Assembly: GCA_036971615.1 (NCBI GenBank)
Contig: JAYKKR010000004.1
Location: 1,612,001 to 1,676,000, forward strand
DNA length: 64,000 nucleotides
Source: Amyloporia xantha
Lineage: Eukaryota > Basidiomycota > Agaricomycetes > Polyporales > Adustoporiaceae
Direction: 5' to 3'
Made by a program: the position numbers and the translations under genes. Below, in pieces: positions 1-12,255 of the stretch. How positions within the stretch are numbered: position 1 is the first letter of the stretch; each line of letters opens with the position of its first letter. Under the pieces are notes generated by a model. That model was not told the origin of the DNA. It saw only the letters and a program-made list of their open reading frames with translations, and did no database searches.

Positions 1-884
1 ATATTGATAAAATACCAAGGTAAGATTGATAAAAAGACAGAAAAGAAGATTGAAAAGATATTAAGAACAGATTGAAATAAGATTGAAGAAAAGATTGAAA
101 TACATCTTATCTGTCTTGTATCAATCTGTTTTCAATATTACAGACAAAAAGATGAAAGTGAGACTGAAATAAGACTTTAACAGGATTGATGGGAAAGATT
201 GAAAACAGATTGAAATAGGATTGTGACAGCTCTGTCACAGTATGTTCAAAATCTTGTGACATGAAAGATAGAGATAAGACTGTGACCACATGTTTTCAAT
301 CTTTTCAATCAGTTTTAAATGTCATATGATGCAGAAAAAATGAATACAAGACTGAAATAAAACACAAAAAGGATTGAAAAATAAAGATGAAATAAGACCG
401 AAATACAATTGAAGCAAGATTAAAATAAGATTAAAATAGGATTGAATTTTTCAATCTTATTTCAATCCTATTTCAGTCTTATTTCAGTCTTATTTCATCT
501 TTATTTTTCAATCCTTTTTGTGTTTTATTTCAGTCTTGTATTCATTTTTTCTGCATCATATGACATTTAAAACTGATTGAAAAGATTGAAAACATGTGGT
601 CACAGTCTTATCTCTATCTTTCATGTCACAAGATTTTGAACATACTGTGACAGAGCTGTCACAATCCTATTTCAATCTGTTTTCAATCTTTCCCATCAAT
701 CCTGTTAAAGTCTTATTTCAGTCTCACTTTCATCTTTTTGTCTGTAATATTGAAAACAGATTGATACAAGACAGATAAGATGTATTTCAATCTTTTCTTC
801 AATCTTATTTCAATCTGTTCTTAATATCTTTTCAATCTTCTTTTCTGTCTTTTTATCAATCTTACCTTGGTATTTTATCAATAT
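1..884. repeat. Large near-perfect inverted repeat (fold-back element), left end possibly outside the window
   Basis: The two halves are reverse complements: bases at x and 885-x pair, so position 1 pairs with 884 and the centre lies near 442/443. The outer arms read as perfect; the innermost 60-70 bases on each side have mismatches and a short length difference. Both arms are A/T-rich and built from variants of GATTGAAA / TTTCAATC. Each arm has the same chance 60-codon frame (107-289 minus, 596-778 plus), which simply reflects the symmetry. No transposase is encoded. Pairing reaches base 1, so the true end cannot be seen. It is either a fold-back/MITE-like element or an inverted duplication. 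Confidence 0.85.
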
Positions 885-2433: not shown

Positions 2434-3077
2434 AAAGACGACCGTGAGTGCTCGTTTCCTTCTCATCTTGCTGAGGACTCTGTACTTTACCTCGCCATTC
2501 ATGCAGCCCGCCAAACGTCGAAGCTGCCGCATGCTCAGCCCTGAGCAATGATGCCCCAAGCCACATCCGCATCCAATGGTGTCAGCACTTCAATGGTGTC
2601 TGCACACGCCCGCTCATGAGATACGTGGTTATTCCACATCACTCTGGTATGCACGACGTTGCTGATAGCGGAACGTCAGCTGCGTCTTTGAAGTACACTT
2701 GCGTGAAATATAGCCAGAGAGTTGTGGCGTGCATCATCTATACGCATGAGAGAGGGCTGGCCGCAGCATTCCACTGGGGTGTGTCAATTCGGACGAGAAG
2801 GATGGACGAGCACAGGTGCTCAGAGTCCCTGTTGCCCATTGAGCCAGGGCGGTGGCTCACACTTGGGCACGAGCAGTGCATGGTAAGCTCGCATGCTGAC
2901 AAGTCCCATCATTCAGAGCTAAATTCGATGCACAGATATATTCTGGGGCATGTATCTACATTACTTCATGGGTACATAACCTCGCAGGCGACACCTGTGC
3001 TCACAATGTCTCACCGTCAGACGTATGAAGTGTTCCCCATGCTGCCGTCGTCCAGTCTGGCAAAAGCACAGGAGATG
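2434..3077. other. No supported gene; left flank of LTR element 1
   Basis: One 164-codon frame (2616-3110, plus) runs out of this segment into the LTR and resembles nothing I recognise. It is not related to the gypsy integrase on the other side of the element, which matters for how the element arrived. Confidence 0.4.
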
Positions 3078-3332
3078 TGTAACAAATATACTTCTCTCAA
3101 TCACACCTGATATGCGCTGCACCCAATCTCTATTCCAGAGAAAGTCTACAGTAGTGCATACATGGATGTAATGTGAAAGAAGTGTTCGTCTTAGAAAGGA
3201 AATAGGATAGTGGCATATGTGCTGGCACACAAACATATGTAAATATAGATGATAAGGGCATATAAGCCTGGGATAAGGGATTATAATAATATAATGGAGT
3301 ATAATTGAATAGATATGTAACGGCACGTTACA
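3078..3332 (-). repeat. LTR of element 1 (downstream copy in element sense)
   Basis: A 255-bp direct repeat of 9484-9737 with TG...CA ends and a 6-bp terminal inverted repeat (TGTAAC/GTTACA). About four substitutions and one indel separate the copies. In element sense it includes A/T-rich TATA-like sequence around 3250-3300. Confidence 0.9.
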
Positions 3333-3344
3333 TCCTCCCCTACC
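3333..3344 (-). other. Polypurine tract of element 1
   Basis: On the minus strand GGTAGGGGAGGA directly precedes the LTR start. In LTR retrotransposons this purine run primes plus-strand DNA synthesis; it fixes the element's orientation. Confidence 0.7.
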
Positions 3345-3765
3345 GGACTCGTACCACGGGTCCAACAGGAGGAAGGGCCCATCACACCTTGAAGTGGATG
3401 AAACCAGTGGAATGTATTCCTTGCAGGAGACGATGAAGTCCCCGCAGCAACAGTTCACAATCAAATTGTGAACACTCCACGCAGGTCAAGGAGTAGTACT
3501 TAGACATGTGGCAAGCACAGTCTGCAGCAGAGTTGACATCAATGCAAACCAGTCCCCAGAGACCAGTGAGCGCCAACATCGCATCTGAGTCCCAGGCAGT
3601 AGGGTCACTCTGCCTTTGGACCAGCAGGACACAGGGGGGTTACCTCTGCATCCTCAGCAATGTTATCCATTGCTGATGACCAGGAGAGGCATCAAGGTGC
3701 ATTGCCGAATCCGTCGTTGGTCATGATAGTGGATGACGACTGATTCAAGGAAATACGGCATGCCA

Positions 3766-3905
3766 CACCGGTTAGGCATGTGGCAAGTCCACAGAGATAT
3801 GCTGCACCAGTTAAGCATGCAGCATGTCCATAAATATAGCATGCCAAACTGTGAAGTATCTGGCATGCCCGCTGACGTACCACGCAACACCGGTTAGGCA
3901 TGTCG
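3766..3905. repeat. Three degenerate copies of a short CACCGGTTAGGCATGT-like motif
   Basis: Related motifs begin near 3766, 3803 and 3887 (CACCGGTTAGGCATG, CACCAGTTAAGCATG, CACCGGTTAGGCATG), with short GCATGCC-type inverted pairs between them. They lie at the 3' end of, and just beyond, the element 1 frame. Confidence 0.5.
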
Positions 3906-6900
3906 CATGTATGAGGAGACGACGCACATGGCATCTCGACATGTCCATGCCATTGACCTAGACGGTCTAGTGCAATGGTTACACAGCATCAATGAAGGCG
4001 CTGAGGGCATGAAGAAGCTGCGCCAGGAACTGACGTGAACCTCATATACTGGGAAGCCAGCGCTGGGGCACAGCACAATGGCATCCAGTGGATAGATGAC
4101 AGCATATGGCATGCTGTCACTATCCGCATCAGAAGCAGTGACAGACTGCTCCTGGTATGTGCGTCGCACTGGTAGGTGTGACGTATGCTGGGATGAAGTG
4201 TACAACACATCAGGTGTTGTACGCTGGAGGAGAGGGAGTAACCTCTGTCGCGCCTCCACAACATATTCAATGTTGTGGAGACAGCATGCAGTAAGGTGCT
4301 GCAGCCATACTTCGATGTAGGCATACAGCTGTGAGTCATCTTCTGGAAGCAGAAGATACCACTGAGCGGCTTGCGCTGCTCTGCACCTTGCCAATATGAC
4401 CTCAGTCTCATAGGCAAGGGCACATTCACCCTCTATGCGCTCAGCATCTGAGATGCTGGGCGTATAGGGGCTTGAGGCGATGGAGGCATTGGCAGTGGAC
4501 ATGGTGGTTGAGAGGATGGAGGATCCCTGTCCACGTCGACGGTCTATATAGACCTCCAGCGTCAATCGAAGTCGGTTACAGACTTCGATTCCTGATGAGC
4601 GCTGATGAGCGCTGGTCAGCAGACTCAAACTGGAATTGAAAGTATTCCATTTGAGGAGCGACAATCCCAGTGATATGGAATTGTCACCGAAGAGCAGGAC
4701 CAATGGGAATTGGTCAGGCTCCCGGTCCCTCCCCCCTCGGAAAGATACCCCAGTCTGATGAACTTCAGCATCAGAGTCTGGGTTCAGTCGTTTGGGAGGT
4801 AGGATAGTGCGACTGGTAAGCAGCACTACAATTAGAATAGACAAAGTATAAAATACTTCATCTATCCACCGAAAGAATGGCCCAAGTCCAATAGAGACAA
4901 GGGTCAGACATTTCGAAAGGAAAGGAGAAGTCGAGTACATAGAAGATGTACTCGAACACTTCACATATTGGTGCATGGAGACAGGCAAACAACATGATAA
5001 GTTGTTTGTATGTCTATCGACAAGCATGTCTTGGGCATATTCACCCTCAGATACTCCGATAATTGAGGTGAATATGCAGCCCAAGAAGCTTGCATGCATG
5101 TTCTCAAGCATCAGAGGACTTGAGAACAACAGCCTGCTCGACACTACAGTACCGTGTACGTCGGGCAGAGGCTCAGAGTGGACAGGGTGCAGAGGCGTGC
5201 AGTCAGCAATGCTGCTGCACGTATCGCTCACCGCTGCACTCAGGGTAAGTCGCTGCTCAAGTACTTGGGTACTTGAGAAGTGTGCTCCGCTCAATGCACT
5301 GATACTCAGGCATCGAGCGGAGGCTCCCTCGAGTACTATAGTACTCGGGTGGAGTGCCCATCCTAATGCAGCACTATCATGCACATCGGGATGGGGTGGG
5401 TGATGGACGAGATACGGCGGATGCGCGCGCTCGAGCATTAAAGTACTCGAGGACAGCGACCGACCCATCACGCCAACACGTACTTGAGTGTACGAATGAC
5501 ATGTCTCGTCGTTCGCATGTACATCGTCGAGCACGGCAATGCTCAGGATGGCAGACGACCGGTACGCGCAGTCAGCAATGCTGCTGCGTGTATCGTCCGT
5601 GTCCGTGCTCTCGAGTACCAAAGTACTCGAGGGCGGCGGTCTATGTCCGTCGTCGAGGACAGCGCTCAGAGTGTAGGCACCGTAGTCCCCGCAGGGGCGA
5701 GATCCGTCAAGTACAGAAGTACTTGGCGGATGCACGCTGCTGCCGCACCTACGGGGCGCACCATCGCGGTGAGTGACGTCGAGTACCGTAGTACTCGGCG
5801 TATATGCAGGGCTCCGCACACGTTTGCGTGAGCGGCGCCGTCTGCTGTCTGCGGCGTCAGACCGGGCACGGCGAGTACCTTCGAGTACAGGGGTACTCGA
5901 AGAATATGCACGGCCAATTGGGCTGGTGCGCGGGCGTCGAGTGAGCGCCCTCTCGAGTACTATAGTACTTGAGTAAGGTACCTGTCCCAGCACAGCACGA
6001 TTGTGCACGTTGGGAGGCAGCTCTGAGCGAGCGCGGACAGCCGGCAGCATGTACACACAGCCTAGGGAGCTCGTGCGCACACGCCGTAAAGGCACCCTTC
6101 CGAGTACAGATGTACTCGGACGGTAGGCCCTGCCCGACGTAGCACTACTGTGCTCGTTGGGTACGGCTTGGGAGTAGGTGGCCGGCGATGCGAACACGCA
6201 GTCAGTCATGCTGCTGCGTGTACCATTCGCATCAGCGCTGTCGAGTATTGACGTACTCGAGAGCACTGGTCTGCTCGGTGCTGCATTAGCCAGCACGAGT
6301 GGCGGCTCGGATTGAGCGACCAACGACGTGGGCATGCACCTAGCCATGCTGGTGCATGCACCGTTTGTGGCCATGTCCTCGAGTACCTTAGTATTCGGAG
6401 GCAATGGTCCATCCAGTGCGGCGCCGCTGCGCGCGCTGGCTGGTGCTCGGGAGCGAGAGAGGTGCGGCAGATGCACGCAGTTAGCTGTGCTGCTGTGTCC
6501 ATCGCTCGCACTCGCACTCTCGAGTATCGGAAGACTCGAGAGCAATAGCCTGCTCGGCGCTGCACTGACGTACGCGTCGAGCAGCCGCTCAGATTGAACA
6601 GACGGTGGAGCTAGTGCGCCGTCAGCTATGCTGGTGCACGCACTGCTCACGTCCGCGTTCTCGAATACTGAGCTATTCGAGAGCCACGGCTGACCCGGTG
6701 CGGCATCGTTGTGTGCACTGGGTAGCGGCTCGGGTTGAGGAATCAGTGGAGCGGGTACGCCGTCAGCATCGCTGGCGTGCGCATCCCTCGCGCCCGCGTT
6801 CTCAAGCACAGAAGTACTTGGGTACAGCGGGCCGTCCCGCGTGCAGGCGTGAAGAACGCTGCATGCGCGATTTCGCACTGATATCGAAGTGCTCAAACAA

Positions 6901-9425
6901 CGCACCTGCTCGAGTACTAGTGTACTTGAGTAGTGCGCCTTGTTCGGCGCATTTGCGCTCGGGCATTCGAGCACGGTACCTTCGAGTATGAAAGTGCTCG
7001 GGGAGTACATTGGCCCCAACGTAGCACTGTCGTGCTCGTTGGTTCCATGTGCGAGACGCGTGGTATACAGCGGCTGCACACAGACAGCCGTGCTGCTGTG
7101 CGCGTCGCCCGTATGTGCGTCCTCGAGCATTGGGGTACTCGGGGACGATGACCCACCCGGCGCAGCGCGGATGCGAGCGTCGGGTGACGGTTCCGGGTAG
7201 ACAGCCTGCGGAATGGGTGCGCCGTCAGCATCGCTGGCGTGCGCACTGCTCGCGTCGGCGTTCTCGAGTGCGCAAGTACTCGAGTACGGCGGTCTGTCCG
7301 GCGCGCGGGCGTGAATAGCGCTGCGCGCGCGATTCCGCACATGTGCCGGCGTGCTCGAGTGAGACACCTGCCCGAGTACTGGTGTACTCGAGTAGTTCGC
7401 CTTATTCGGCACGCCCGCGCTCGAACATTCGAGCCTGGTACTCTCGAGCACAATAGTGCTCGAGACGTACATTGGTCCCAGTGTAGCACCATCGTGCTCG
7501 TTGGTCCCATGTGCGAGGCGCGGGGTATACAGCGGCTGCGCGCAGGCAGCTGTGCTGCTGTGCGCGTCGCTCGTACGCCCGGCCATGTTCTCGAGTACTA
7601 AGGTACTCGGGAACGACGCTCCACCCAGCGCAGCACTAAGGTGCGCGTTGTGCGGCGGTTCTGCGCGGATGCGGAGAGCCGGCGGCGTGTACGCGCAGTC
7701 AGTCAGACCGCTGCGGGTATCGCTCGAGTCTGTGCTCTCGAGTATTGGGATACTCGATAGCAACGGTCTGGCCAATGCAGCACTGTCGAGTGCGCTGGTC
7801 AGCAGCTCAGAAGGACGTGGCGGAGCGGGGGCGCCGTCAGCACGGCTGGCGTGCACACTACTCGCGTCCTCATACTCAAGTACTCCAGCACTTGAGTACA
7901 GTGGCTTGCCCCGCGCGCAGGCATTGTGGATGCTATGTGCGTGGTCCTGCGCGGGAGTCAGTGTGCTCGAATGAAGCACCTGCTCGAGTACTATAGTACT
8001 CGAGTAGTGTACCTTATTCAGCACACTCGCGCTCGGGAGTTCGAGCAGGGTACTCTCGAGTACAAGAGTACAAGAGTAGTACGCCCGTCCCAACGTAGCA
8101 CTACCGTGTGCGTTGGTCCGGGGTGCAAGGTGTGGGTTACGCAGCGGCTGCGCGCAGGCAGCTGTGCTGCTGTGCGCATCGCGCGTATACACGTCCTCAA
8201 GTACTCGAGTACTCGAGAACGACAGCCCACCTGGCGCAGCGCAGATGCGAGCGTCGGGCAATGGCTCAAATTGGGTGAGCGACGATGTGCGCGTGTACTC
8301 AGCTACGCTGGTACGCGCGCCGCTCGCGTTCACGTCCTCGAGTACTGGGGTGCTCGGGAACGACGATACACCCGGCGCGGCACTGATGTGCGCACTGGGC
8401 GGCGTTTCTGGGAGGACGGCAGGCGAAGCGGGTGCGCCGTCAGCTGGGCTGGCAGGCGCACCGTTCTCTGTCGTGTTCTCGAGTACGCAAGTACTCGAGA
8501 GTGACGGCCCACCCAACGCGGCACAACGGTGCGCGTTGGGCGGCGGCTCGGTGAGGACAACGGATGGACTGGGGTACTTACCTATGGGGGTGCCCCGGTT
8601 CCCGTGTGTCCCAATACCCTCCCGGGCGCGCAACCGCCCGGCGAGTTCGCTCCAAGGGGGCGAGGAGTCACTCGAGACCTCTTGAAGGTCCGAGTATCGA
8701 CGATGAACGCCGTACGGCGCGTCTTGACGCGTCGCAGAGGGCTGCAGCGTGCCGTCGTTGGACGGGGCATGCTGTGGCTGCTGGGAGCCGTCTTGTACGG
8801 ACCGTACTGGTGCGCTCGGGGGTACCGGGCGCGTCCGTTCGGTTTCCGCGGCCGTGGGTGTTGCGGTGGTGGCGGAGTGAGCTGGTGTCGAGGTGGAAGA
8901 GGAGGTGGTGGTGGTGGTAGCGGAAGAAGGCGCGTGTAGGCGCTCACCGCGCCGCGCGTCGGGAATGACTGCGCGGGGCGTCGGGCGCAAACCTCGGGCA
9001 GCCTCAGAGGTCCCCGTTGCGGGCCTGCTGAGCTGCGCAGATTCGCGCACGGGAGAGGACTGCTGTTCAGCGCGTCGCTTCTCGTCGTGGTCGATCTGCG
9101 CCATGACACAGTACCGGATGGTACTGACTGCCATGAGTGCGCGCTCTTCGCGCTCGAATCCGTACCGTCTCGCTCGGTCGTCAAACCGAGTGACTCTTTC
9201 CTCGAGATCCTCGAGAGACATCTCGATTAAATCTGAGATGGCTCTTTCAAAGGATAGAGACCTTCTCTCCCAGTGAACCCAGGAGGGAAGGTCTTGGGCT
9301 CTCCAAGCCTTGCATGAAGAACTGTGAGCTTCTTCATGCAGGGGATGCAACACCTCGAGGCATTTAGCCAAGAGGGCTGTTCCAGCTGGCCACTTGGTAA
9401 AGTAGCTAGTTGAATATGTATGCAT
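3894..9425 (-). CDS. 1843-residue repetitive protein of LTR element 1, function unknown
   Basis: A single uninterrupted frame starts about 60 bases inside the upstream LTR. Residues 1-130 look like a folded, charged, helix-prone region (for example LEDLEERVTRFDDRARRYGF), followed by an S/T/P/A-rich linker. Residues about 290-1390 repeat S-S-T-x-V-L-E roughly every 35-45 residues, separated by blocks such as AHSSTAACAQPL and AAPGG. Near residue 1525 is a hydrophobic stretch (TLSILIVVLLTSR) that could span a membrane, then a less repetitive C-terminus with an acidic/helical part. No gag zinc knuckle or pol motif was seen. The repeats coincide with DNA hairpins, so the peptide repeat may be a by-product of structure, or the reverse. 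An open frame this long is unlikely by chance, but in-frame repeat amplification makes length weaker evidence than usual. Confidence 0.6.
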   Translation of the reverse strand: MHTYSTSYFTKWPAGTALLAKCLEVLHPLHEEAHSSSCKAWRAQDLPSWVHWERRSLSFERAISDLIEMSLEDLEERVTRFDDRARRYGFEREERALMAVSTIRYCVMAQIDHDEKRRAEQQSSPVRESAQLSRPATGTSEAARGLRPTPRAVIPDARRGERLHAPSSATTTTTSSSTSTPAHSATTATPTAAETERTRPVPPSAPVRSVQDGSQQPQHAPSNDGTLQPSATRQDAPYGVHRRYSDLQEVSSDSSPPWSELAGRLRAREGIGTHGNRGTPIGKYPSPSVVLTEPPPNAHRCAALGGPSLSSTCVLENTTENGAPASPADGAPASPAVLPETPPSAHISAAPGVSSFPSTPVLEDVNASGARTSVAEYTRTSSLTQFEPLPDARICAAPGGLSFSSTRVLEDVYTRDAHSSTAACAQPLRNPHLAPRTNAHGSATLGRAYYSCTLVLESTLLELPSASVLNKVHYSSTIVLEQVLHSSTLTPAQDHAHSIHNACARGKPLYSSAGVLEYEDASSVHASRADGAPAPPRPSELLTSALDSAALARPLLSSIPILESTDSSDTRSGLTDCAYTPPALRIRAEPPHNAHLSAALGGASFPSTLVLENMAGRTSDAHSSTAACAQPLYTPRLAHGTNEHDGATLGPMYVSSTIVLESTRLECSSAGVPNKANYSSTPVLGQVSHSSTPAHVRNRARSAIHARAPDRPPYSSTCALENADASSAHASDADGAPIPQAVYPEPSPDARIRAAPGGSSSPSTPMLEDAHTGDAHSSTAVCVQPLYTTRLAHGTNEHDSATLGPMYSPSTFILEGTVLECPSANAPNKAHYSSTLVLEQVRCLSTSISVRNRACSVLHACTRDGPLYPSTSVLENAGARDAHASDADGVPAPLIPQPEPLPSAHNDAAPGQPWLSNSSVFENADVSSACTSIADGALAPPSVQSERLLDAYVSAAPSRLLLSSLPILESASASDGHSSTANCVHLPHLSRSRAPASARSGAALDGPLPPNTKVLEDMATNGACTSMARCMPTSLVAQSEPPLVLANAAPSRPVLSSTSILDSADANGTRSSMTDCVFASPATYSQAVPNEHSSATSGRAYRPSTSVLGRVPLRRVRTSSLGCVYMLPAVRARSELPPNVHNRAVLGQVPYSSTIVLERALTRRPRTSPIGRAYSSSTPVLEGTRRARSDAADSRRRRSRKRVRSPAYTPSTTVLDVTHRDGAPRRCGSSVHPPSTSVLDGSRPCGDYGAYTLSAVLDDGHRPPPSSTLVLESTDTDDTRSSIADCAYRSSAILSIAVLDDVHANDETCHSYTQVRVGVMGRSLSSSTLMLERAHPPYLVHHPPHPDVHDSAALGWALHPSTIVLEGASARCLSISALSGAHFSSTQVLEQRLTLSAAVSDTCSSIADCTPLHPVHSEPLPDVHGTVVSSRLLFSSPLMLENMHASFLGCIFTSIIGVSEGEYAQDMLVDRHTNNLSCCLPVSMHQYVKCSSTSSMYSTSPFLSKCLTLVSIGLGPFFRWIDEVFYTLSILIVVLLTSRTILPPKRLNPDSDAEVHQTGVSFRGGRDREPDQFPLVLLFGDNSISLGLSLLKWNTFNSSLSLLTSAHQRSSGIEVCNRLRLTLEVYIDRRRGQGSSILSTTMSTANASIASSPYTPSISDAERIEGECALAYETEVILARCRAAQAAQWYLLLPEDDSQLYAYIEVWLQHLTACCLHNIEYVVEARQRLLPLLQRTTPDVLYTSSQHTSHLPVRRTYQEQSVTASDADSDSMPYAVIYPLDAIVLCPSAGFPVYEVHVSSWRSFFMPSAPSLMLCNHCTRPSRSMAWTCRDAMCVVSSYMRHA
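4200..4955. repeat. Series of perfect hairpins outside the main array
   Basis: Perfect stems here include GTACAACAC/GTGTTGTAC (4200-4222), CTCCACAACAT/ATGTTGTGGAG (4254-4280), ATCGAAGTC/GACTTCGAT (4565-4589), GACCAAT/ATTGGTC (4698-4715) and TCGAGTACAT/ATGTACTCGA (4931-4955), with loops of 4-7 bases. Their sequences differ from one another, so they are not simply copies of one palindrome. They continue the hairpin architecture into the non-repetitive C-terminal part of the element 1 frame. Confidence 0.75.
5256..8540. repeat. Array of about 28 palindrome units, with further hairpins between them
   Basis: Type A is a 22-mer with 9-bp arms of the form CTCGAGTAC and GTACTCGAG around a variable 4-base loop. 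I placed copies at about 5256, 5328, 5430, 5610, 5706, 5777, 5879, 5952, 6099, 6240, 6377, 6517, 6660, 6801, 6909, 6980, 7122, 7263, 7371, 7443, 7588, 7736, 7875, 7983, 8054 (degenerate), 8196, 8337 and 8478. Between them lie type B stems (for example 7016-7042, 7155-7185, 8512-8540) and type C stems (5563-5592, 6332-6359, 8289-8320, 8431-8462). Arms vary together, for example GAGCAC with GTGCTC at 7443 and CTCAAG with CTTGAG at 5256. A larger unit recurs near 6801, 7263 and 7875. Confidence 0.9.
9311..9340. repeat. Perfect 11-bp hairpin near the start of the element 1 frame
   Basis: TGCATGAAGAA (9311-9321) pairs with TTCTTCATGCA (9330-9340) around an 8-base loop. A neighbouring stem pairs AGACC and GAAGG-type arms across about 9259-9293. 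This shows the hairpin habit spans the whole internal region. Confidence 0.75.
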
Positions 9426-9483
9426 GCGCTATAGACTCCCTCAGGTTGTAGAAACCTGACAAAGTCAGAGGAGCGCAAAAATG

Positions 9484-9737
9484 TGTAACAAATATACTTC
9501 TCTCACTCACACCTGATATGCGCTGCACCCAATCTCTATTCCAGAGAAAGTCTACAGTAGTGCATACATGGATGTAATGTGAAAGAAGTGTTAGTCTTAG
9601 AAAGGAAATAGATGGTGGCATATGTGCTGGCACACAAACATATGTAAATATAGATGATAAGGGCATATAAGCCTGGGATAAGGGATTATAATAATATAAT
9701 GGAATATAATTGAATAGATATGTAACGGCACGTTACA
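9484..9737 (-). repeat. LTR of element 1 (upstream copy in element sense)
   Basis: Direct repeat of 3078-3332, 254 bp, TGTAAC...GTTACA. Just inside it on the minus strand is a short region with a CTGAC-TTT-GTCAG stem where a primer-binding site is expected. It does not begin with the usual TGG, so the primer is unclear. Confidence 0.9.
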
Positions 9738-11203
9738 AATGCCGAGCAAGGGCTTCTGCTATTTTGAGGGTGCGTTTACGTCCCAAAGAATGCAGAGCTT
9801 CAGCGGGATATTGTCAAAATCCACCACAACGCACCTGCAGCCGGCCACCCTGGTCAGGCCAAGACCCTCGAGTTAGTATCGCGAAACTATTGGTGGCCGG
9901 GAATGTCCAAGTTCGTCAATGAGTACGTAAGCACCTGCGACACATGCAACCGTACCAAGACATTTCCCGCTAAACCACAAGGGCCGCTCAAATCGAATGA
10001 GATTCCGGAGCGCCCTTGGCAGGTTATTACCACCGATATGATCGTGGGTCTCCCTAAGTCCGATGGGTTCGATTCAATCCTGGTCACTGCAGATCGCTTC
10101 ACCAAGATGGTGCACTTCTCGGCATGTCATGAGACTCTGACTGCTGAAGGTGCTGCTGAACTTTACATACGCGATGTCTTTTCACATCATGGGGCCCTGG
10201 CCAAGGTCATATCAGACCGAGGTCCCCAATTCGCGTCAAAGTATCTGCATGCGATCTACAAAGGGATGAATATTGAACCAGCCATGTCGACTGCCTTTCA
10301 CCCTCAGACAGACGGGCAGACGGAGCAGTGGAATCAGGAGATCGAGCAGTATCTTAGGGCTTATGTCGGCCATAGACAGGATGATTGGGCGAAGCAGTTG
10401 CCTTTTGCAGAGTTTGCACTGAACAATCGAGTTCACTCTGCAACTGGTTATTCCCCTTTCTTTTTGAACCAGGCCTATAACCCCGATCTCCAAATCCGCT
10501 TGAACCCCATGTCGAAGGTGCCCACTGCGGAAGATAGGTTGAAGTTGTTGCAGGAGATATGGGATGACACGCGCGCTGCGCTTGAGCTGTCTGCTGAGCG
10601 TATGAAAATGTACTACGATAGACACGTGCAGGAGGCACCGGTGTTCAAACCTGGTGACAAGGTGTGGCTGGATGCTCGTAATCTGAAGCTGAAACAGCCG
10701 AGTAAAAAGCTAAGTCCCAAACACCTTGGTCCCTTCCCTGTCACACGGAAGATCAGTGATTTGGACTATGAACTAAAATTGCCCAAATCGGTGCCAGTTC
10801 ATCCAGTCTTCCACATGTCTCCTTGCTCAGCAAGCATACGCATAGTGAAATCCCAGGTCGAGAACCAGACGAACCGCCACCTATTGAGGTCAAAGGCGAA
10901 GACAAGTACGAAGTTGAGCAAATCAAGGATTCACGTATATTCCGCTGCCAACTTCAGTACCTCGTCAAATGGAAAGGATACGATGAGTCCCATACGTCTT
11001 GGGAACCTGCGCGTAACATTGCAAATGCAAAGGAACTCATCGAGACCTTCCATCGTAGACACCCTAGTGCGCCTCGTCGACTCAATGCCGCTATCTTTGC
11101 TGGCTTGCAGTTCCGACCACTTCCTGAAGCGATGACCAAAGCACATTGCTGTTCTGGTTGGGAGATGGGGAAAGGAAGCGCGCATGACGACATGCAGCAT
11201 TAG
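9738..11203 (+). pseudogene. Ty3/gypsy chromovirus integrase 3' fragment with chromodomain, frameshifted
   Basis: The segment enters the integrase at the HHCC zinc-binding region (HHNAPAAGHPGQ ... CDTCNRTK). It then carries the catalytic core with the DDE acids in TTDMIVGLP, ISDRGPQF and GQTEQWNQEIEQ, and a GDKVWLDARNL C-terminal segment. After HPVFHMSPCSA the frame shifts by one base (near 10830), and a chromodomain follows (YLVKWKGYDESHTSWEP). Reverse transcriptase and everything upstream are absent, and a stop lies just before the integrase start. This is the 3' part of a chromovirus pol, cut off by element 1, and is surely not functional alone. Confidence 0.9.
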
Positions 11204-12081: not shown

Positions 12082-12255
12082 TAGAAAATCACAGGTTCAG
12101 AAGGTTCGAACCGGTTATGAACCTGAACTGAACCTGCTGAACCGGTTCAGCAGGTTCAGTTCAGGTTCAGGTTCAGGTTCAGCCATAGGCATGCAGGTTC
12201 GGTTCGGGGTTCAGCTGAAATACCCGCTGAACCGAACTGAACCGAACTTAGGAGA
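12082..12255. repeat. GGTTCA-rich palindromic repeat
   Basis: Variants of GGTTCA/TGAACC fill the segment. A perfect 52-bp palindrome spans 12118-12169, centred on CCGG at 12142-12145, and a second looser pair (AACCGAACTGAACCG) lies near 12230-12250. There is no frame or flanking duplication. It is a simple-sequence fold-back. Confidence 0.75.

Follow-up and report, generated by a model that had tools for sequence, protein, structure and literature searches.

A hairpin-filled LTR element with one long reading frame in Amyloporia xantha and its possible selection for folding

The window analysed here is a stretch of 64,000 nucleotides from the basidiomycete Amyloporia xantha (contig JAYKKR010000004.1, positions 1,612,001 to 1,676,000). 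It contains an LTR-bounded element whose interior combines a single long reading frame with a chain of short hairpins (Table 1). The purine tract beside the left LTR and the start codon of the frame, 58 bases inward of the right LTR, place the element on the minus strand.

Table 1. Features of the element in the window
Feature	Position	Strand	Remarks
Element	3078-9737	-	LTR-bounded; hairpin array within
5' LTR (element orientation)	9484-9737	-	TGTAAC...GTTACA; 98% identity to left LTR
3' LTR (element orientation)	3078-3332	-	98.4% LTR-LTR identity in window copy
Junction of 5' LTR and interior, expected position of primer-binding site	9470-9489	-	20-base junction
Purine tract GGTAGGGGAGGA adjoining 3' LTR, probable polypurine tract	3333-3344	-	Seen directly; 14-base junction
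Chain of short hairpins filling the interior	3453-9343		Stem census; folding excess over codon and dinucleotide shuffles
Single open frame, 1,843 aa	3894-9425	-	No known domain, no homologue found
N-terminal non-repeated coding part, with stems	8601-9425	-	18 genomic matches; pN/pS 0.31-0.65
In-frame array, units of about 141 bp with hairpins A, B and C each	5189-8543	-	27 type-A units and repeat families
C-terminal coding part, diverse stems	3894-5090	-	95-97% identity, window copy versus others

The locus had been predicted to be a retroelement, and its termini and those of its relatives bear this out. Both LTRs are direct, about 255 bp long and bounded by TG...CA (TGTAAC...GTTACA). A short target duplication of fixed length accompanies most of the paired copies, with 5 bp in five of the seven (L010-L014) and four of five bases in a sixth (L009). 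The window copy has none (flanks GCATT/CATCT at 3073-3077 and 9738-9742), possibly owing to recombination between copies or a later rearrangement. It adjoins a gypsy-type integrase frame (9903-11135). No TGG stands beside the LTR at the 5' junction, all 20 bases of which recur at 14 genomic places with 0 mismatches each, every one at an LTR of the window element's family. The 14-base purine-tract junction is exact at 10 genomic places, each at LTRs of the same family; with one mismatch it has 22 matches, compared with 15 for a control pattern. A genome-wide search for an autonomous partner with the 14-base and 20-base patterns retrieved no exact junction outside the family.

The LTR has at least 26 matches across the 46.8-Mb, 60-contig genome. 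Eight copies were read, namely the window copy, the paired elements L009-L014 and the longer L015, the last without its 5' LTR. The seven paired elements measure 5.4-6.7 kb, and the six besides the window copy 5.4-6.3 kb. The family includes recent insertions. Leaving out 2-8 gap positions per pair, the two LTRs show 0 base differences in L011, L013 and L014 and have identities of 99.6% (L009), 98.4% (window copy), 97.3% (L010) and 96.8% (L012). Since the LTR pairs of L011, L013 and L014 are free of base differences, the differences among these three copies mostly predate insertion. Over the last 1.75 kb or so of the interior, the window copy is 95-97% identical to L009-L015; long alignable blocks upstream are about 71-91% identical. 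The copies are mosaic, with alignable blocks ranging from 71 to 98% identity, perhaps through recombination between elements or template exchange. The loci L046, L047 and L049 carry the LTR and the N-terminal part common to the family (about 880-900 bases), followed by sequence with no strong match to the window element. In L049, the segments at about 2893-3240 and 4434-4780 form a large inverted pair.

The 1,843-codon frame spans nearly the whole interior, including the entire array, where hairpins A, B and C correspond to the peptide motifs SSTxVLE, PNAH..AALG, and DGAPAS..DGAP or DAHSSTAACAQP, respectively. All 27 type-A palindromes of the window copy lie in one codon phase and their 26 spacings are all multiples of three. 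The phase is likewise single in 95 of 95 type-A units (at most 4 mismatches) of L011-L014 and the window copy, and the eight copies together give 152 of 152 spacings divisible by three. A long frame is kept in five copies (1,440-1,843 codons): stop-to-stop frames at the same place measure 1,440 codons in L011, 1,579 in L012, where the frame stops early, 1,587 in L013 and 1,444 in L014. In L009 and L010 it is broken into pieces. In alignments of 7 or 8 copies, gap runs tallied for each sequence are multiples of three in 18 of 19 cases in the N-terminal part (3, 9, 12 or 15 long; one is of length 1) and of length 3 or 9 in five of five cases in the C-terminal coding part, while all six in the untranslated 3' part are of length 1. 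Six pairs of copies gave pN/pS values of 0.31-0.65 for the N domain, 0.63-0.94 for the array and 0.39-0.84 for the C part, after removal of 0-17 out-of-frame codons from each comparison. Gap lengths, pN/pS and the type-A phase together indicate that the frame is maintained and that the amino acids of the array are weakly constrained.

No Pfam domain matched the 1,843-aa frame up to an E-value of 1; the search thus detected none of the gag-pol enzymes of autonomous LTR retrotransposons in the window copy, and no pol domain. No protein homologue was found among 7,981 and 4,903 scored candidates. The neighbouring gypsy frame, used as a query against the same database, gave 3,217 matches, and six of the seven organism-named records among the 120 listed were basidiomycete, so the protein database does contain fungi. 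Viral contigs yielded no relative of the element. A structure predicted for residues 1-130, with no alignment, had a pLDDT of 54.9, too low for interpretation. A splice-donor-like AGGTAAGTACC is present at the start of the array (8573-8583, minus strand); of 14 aligned copies, eight have GTAAGT at this site and one has GTGAGT, the remainder being unaligned there.

The original prediction placed a series of palindromes between 5256 and 8540, with about 28 copies of a 9-bp-arm palindrome (type A). We counted 27 such copies with at most 4 mismatches in the 18 arm positions (5240-8582), of which 3 are exact, 10 have at most one mismatch and 24 at most three; the mean in shuffled sequences was 0 (n=50). 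All nine pairs are intact in 7 of the 27. Each of the eight arm pairs named individually is present, six at the predicted start and two 3-4 bases later (7446 instead of 7443, and 7740 instead of 7736); two of the eight hold one G.T pair and are thus not fully Watson-Crick. The predicted number of about 28 thus holds. The predicted limits proved too narrow, since hairpins of unrelated sequence run from about 9343 to about 3453, and the minus-strand frame over the array had not been part of the prediction.

Hairpins occur throughout the interior. A mechanical search for non-overlapping stems, allowing Watson-Crick pairs only, retrieved 97 stems with a score of at least 6 from the window element, LTRs included, of which 49 scored at least 8 and 16 at least 10. 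Stem density was 14.6/kb in the window element, 14.9-16.5/kb in L009-L014 and 11.5/kb in L015, compared with 4.7-7.3/kb across six stretches of the window taken as controls. Block shuffles (three per element) contained 22-45 stems per paired element (n=7) and 44-58 for L015. Per 500-bp bin, stems scoring at least 7 number mostly 4-9 inside the element and mostly 0-2, with a few bins of 3-5, outside it. They occur in the N-terminal coding part, the array, the C-terminal part and the untranslated 3' part, with unrelated sequences, and their density drops at the LTRs. The two 3.2-kb bins in which most of the element lies contain 21 and 15 perfect 7-base arms (loops of 3-8), the first bin contains 8, and the remaining 17 contain 0-4 each. 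The 7-base-arm counts, the stem-density controls and the shuffle counts rule out a chance origin of the hairpins. An Rfam scan of 3000-9800 retrieved no hammerhead and no known RNA family or ribozyme reaching its cut-off; the sole match up to an E-value of 1 was atpB RNA, which at 21.2 bits fell short of its cut-off of 37.4.

The folding excess is not accounted for by protein or codon usage. Synonymous codons were shuffled within each frame of the window copy and L011-L014 with protein and codon counts unchanged (n=40). In the window copy, the mean MFE per 120 nt was -46.4, compared with -35.6 in the shuffles (z -20.1), and the z values were -21.7 in L011, -24.4 in L012, -25.6 in L013 and -17.9 in L014. 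Five other frames of the window, taken as controls, gave -2.4, 0.6, -0.6, 6.2 and 1.4. With dinucleotide shuffles of 250-nt fragments, six copies had an MFED of 25.7-28.9% for the frame strand and 23.6-25.0% for the opposite strand, while two control stretches gave 0.4-1.1% (1.1% for 9900-30000). With 350-nt fragments, the means of four copies were 26.2-29.4% and their lowest fragments 10.2-13.3%. The two control sets had values of 4.1% and -1.9%; a single fragment of 60.4%, probably the palindrome at 12118-12169, lifted the former.

Type-A stems show compensation between units. The 14 loci used supplied 268 distinct units of up to 6 mismatches. An earlier permutation was replaced by disjoint contrasts because it disregarded relatedness: units were paired by flanking sequence into 74-125 disjoint nearest-neighbour pairs, under six overlapping settings (178, 200 or 268 units with at most 3, 4 or 6 mismatches, each at two distance limits). 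Two-sided changes at paired positions reached about twice the expectation overall (observed/expected 8/3.2, 12/5.6, 12/4.5, 21/9.2, 16/8.1 and 32/16.7), and unpaired combinations 1.03-1.23 of theirs. The observed excess was reached in 0-14 of 5,000 derangements. At the two paired positions that are synonymous on both sides, such changes numbered 1-7 against 0.5-4.2 expected, which is too few to decide.

For the element as a whole, recent copies were compared in both directions (L011/L013 and L009/L014; 974 substitutions counted twice over), with a second pairing of L011/L014 and L009/L013. In the null, each change was relocated within 75 bases and matched for base change, synonymous or nonsynonymous class and CpG status. 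This local null replaced a whole-block codon null, under which regional rate differences inflated the effect. Stem arms change less than matched positions, with 146 substitutions against 224.0 expected (0.65), and this holds at synonymous sites (48 versus 74.2) as well as nonsynonymous ones (89 versus 138.0); the untranslated part gave 9 versus 11.9, which is not significant. Loops received 114 against 97.2 expected, and mirror repeats, retrieved by the same search as a control, 57 against 59.5 (0.96). The depletion varied between pairs of copies, with ratios of 0.82, 0.75, 0.48, 0.57, 0.76, 0.49, 0.60, 0.60 and 0.68 in nine directed comparisons. The other copies thus do not show freely broken stems, a pattern that had been named beforehand as speaking against selection on structure.

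Over the whole element, the avoidance of one-sided changes is a stronger signal than compensation. One-sided stem changes numbered 99 versus 187.8 expected in the first pairing and 94 versus 165.9 in the second, with none of 500 simulations as low in either. The depletion in the first pairing extended over the first 2,300 bases (52 versus 100.1), the last 2,300 (29 versus 53.8) and the N domain alone (25 versus 45.8). Two-sided Watson-Crick changes numbered 13 versus 8.8 in the first pairing (42 of 500 simulations as high) and 15 versus 8.0 in the second (3 of 500), and a tighter null of 40 bases to either side reached these counts in 99 and 26 of 500, respectively. Covariation beyond shared ancestry, as originally proposed, therefore holds for type A in the disjoint nearest-neighbour contrasts and is weak for the whole element under the local codon-matched null, as is compensation outside type A. 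In the N-terminal coding part, some stems are changed on both sides between copies. With the window copy as reference, alignments of the N and C parts gave 7 and 2 two-sided changes that are Watson-Crick and none of another kind; they are unusable as proof because partners slid by -2 or +3 columns yield 5 and 4 in the N part.

Two older copies were also compared with their recent sisters (231 differences), and their arms held 33 changes versus 42.6 expected (0.78). The arm ratios of the two copies were 0.78 and 0.68 for stems scoring at least 6 and 0.86 and 0.92 for those scoring at least 8. Among the 75 changes polarised as private to the two older copies, 17 fell in arms, with 17.7 expected. 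In alignments of the N part (14 copies) and the C part (10 copies), changes common to at least two copies had ratios of 0.70, 0.74 and 0.86 with three references (not significant with one of them), those private to older copies 0.93, 0.78 and 0.87, and those private to recent copies 0.99, 1.07 and 1.00 (36, 43 and 35 changes). These values are suggestive of a relaxation of stem avoidance after insertion and lean towards selection in the active lineage, without amounting to proof; the ratio of about 1.0 for recent private changes conflicts with such selection if those changes predate insertion.

The evidence on the strand that carries the structure disagrees, and recent copies give no clear preference. 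Selection on sense RNA alone should spare G.U. On the frame strand G.U is not spared: one-sided changes to G.T numbered 37 versus 60.7 expected and those to A.C 40 versus 71.6 in the first pairing, and 29 versus 54.6 and 44 versus 61.0 in the second. Mismatches counted over all stems on this strand comprise 136 A.C and 63 G.T, compared with 30 and 30 in the rest of the window. Much of this A.C excess probably comes from one type-A pair, which is C.A in 86 of 268 units. A reading of the excess in favour of the opposite strand was dropped, as the recent copies lack it in one pairing (37 versus 40) and show it weakly in the other (29 versus 44). In each of six copies, the frame strand exceeds the opposite strand by 2-4 points in folding excess.

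Considering that stem sequences are largely free, that pairing is kept and that hairpins cover the element throughout, selection would act on folding as a whole. The explanation that we propose, and hold to be about as likely as not, is that the family consists of non-autonomous, LARD-like LTR retroelements whose full-length nucleic acid is selected for near-continuous short hairpins and which encode one long orphan protein. More tentatively, though not far from an even call, the whole genome of the LTR element may be a selected chain of about a hundred hairpins laid over a full-length frame, with a multiplied 47-codon cassette of three hairpins. By analogy with the genome-scale ordered RNA structure of viruses, the folded form might act on the genomic RNA or its cDNA. 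It could keep the transcript compact for packaging into particles, or shield it from nucleases or RNA silencing, and enzymes would be supplied in trans by another element. With three hairpins in 47 codons, the in-frame unit (about 141 bp) may have been multiplied because it adds hairpins and leaves the frame intact.

The main rival is template-switch (quasi-palindrome) mutation, in which a reverse transcriptase or polymerase switches from one arm to the other and copies one from the other, so that hairpins are made and repaired without selection. Inverted-looking loops are a mark of such events. Their rarity here speaks against it, only 16 of 862 differing loops being closer to the reverse complement and one matching it exactly. 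Template switching is strand-symmetric, in keeping with the lack of sparing of G.U, and in 50 arm sets at least two bases of one arm differ between copies with the other arm unchanged. Published work reports that template switching creates perfect stems and compensatory changes (PMC8794818) and extends the identity between arms of yeast quasi-palindromes (PMC3820800). Against it, the adjacent gypsy pol frame, which is also reverse-transcribed although it may have used another enzyme, has little excess (z -2.4; MFED 1.1%). The private changes of older copies do not avoid stems (17 versus 17.7), a comparison that is no test of switching during reverse transcription. We consider this origin unlikely. 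Less likely again is a role at the DNA level, in which the palindromes would act as cruciforms or as single-stranded DNA hairpins in cDNA or during replication. Such forms might, for instance, serve integration, mark chromatin or promote recombination between copies. The near equality of the folding excess on both strands and the unspared G.U would suit it, and the mosaic copies, with their blocks of 71-98% identity, suggest recombination between elements. However, the stems are short (16 of 97 score at least 10). The stems outside the array have no common sequence, which argues against a sequence-specific binding protein and disfavours the protein-binding array that had been among the original suggestions.

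That the hairpins are a by-product of coding is very improbable. Under this explanation, the repeats SSTxVLE, PNAH..AALG and DGAP..DGAP would happen to fall on palindromic codons, and the shared ancestry of the units would mimic a system. The strictly in-frame units of the eight copies (152 of 152 type-A spacings) accord with it, but unrelated stems also occur in the N part, the C part and the untranslated 3' part, synonymous changes avoid arms (48 versus 74.2), and the amino acids of the array are weakly constrained (pN/pS 0.63-0.94). As a full explanation it is refuted by the synonymous-codon shuffles, in which the structure is lost with protein and codon usage preserved.

To our knowledge, there is no second LTR element whose protein-coding interior is constructed in this way. 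Within the accessible portions of the open-access literature on structured or hairpin-rich LTR elements, template switching and genome-scale ordered RNA structure (GORS), no LTR element of this kind was found. Several known systems come close to the family. Large retrotransposon derivatives (LARDs), such as Sukkula of grasses, are described as LTR-bounded, devoid of gag-pol and assumed to move in trans. The window element resembles them as a large LTR element with a structured interior in which no pol was found. LARDs are also described as encoding no protein product, whereas five copies of the family retain a frame of 1,440-1,843 codons, and short local hairpins in a chain make up the structure. 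The element does not fit the LARD definition because the long frame is kept, with all but one of the N and C gaps in multiples of three and pN/pS below 1.

GORS is a structure of one RNA strand in which G.U is spared. The element works like GORS yet is not a member: consecutive stem-loops run through coding sequence and the MFED lies far above shuffled controls along the whole element, but G.U is not spared in the family, and it is an LTR element integrated in a 46.8-Mb genome and not a positive-strand RNA virus. GORS consists of several hundred consecutive stem-loops through coding sequence, poorly conserved in position and measured by MFED, with values of 7.5-10.7% in HCV, about 15% in SARS-CoV-2 and 23.4% as the highest quoted (PMC7642675). 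The 26-29% of the element lies above all of these quoted values, the shuffle program and fragment step being different. Retrozymes are described as non-autonomous LTR retroelements with structured RNA (PMC4918200), and the element shares with them a predicted structured interior in a putatively non-autonomous LTR retroelement; it differs in having no hammerhead match in 3000-9800 by Rfam. The TIPIRT domain of Ty1, which functions in packaging and dimerisation, is a further example of structured RNA in an LTR retroelement (PMC5454406). Its structure lies at the 5' terminus, whereas in the window element it occupies the whole interior.

If the proposed reading is correct, nearly the whole 6,000-letter interior would be folded while spelling one long protein, an unusually strong double use of sequence in which a coding sequence is obliged to meet reading frame and base pairing together. 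Genome-wide folding is known from persistent RNA viruses, where its purpose is unsettled. A retroelement that seems to have the same property at even greater strength, in several recent copies, offers a harmless case in which packaging, stability and escape from silencing could be set against one another. The same case bears on whether reverse transcription itself manufactures hairpins.

Long palindromes also occur in the window outside the element. The one at 12118-12169 is perfect, with 24-bp arms and a 4-base CCGG loop (TGAACCTGAACTGAACCTGCTGAA), and is the longest perfect stem among the listed stems scoring at least 10 outside the element. At the AT-rich left end of the window (410-497) there is a long quasi-palindrome with an arm of 37 and a loop of 14, made of AAGATTAAAATAGGATT-like repeats.
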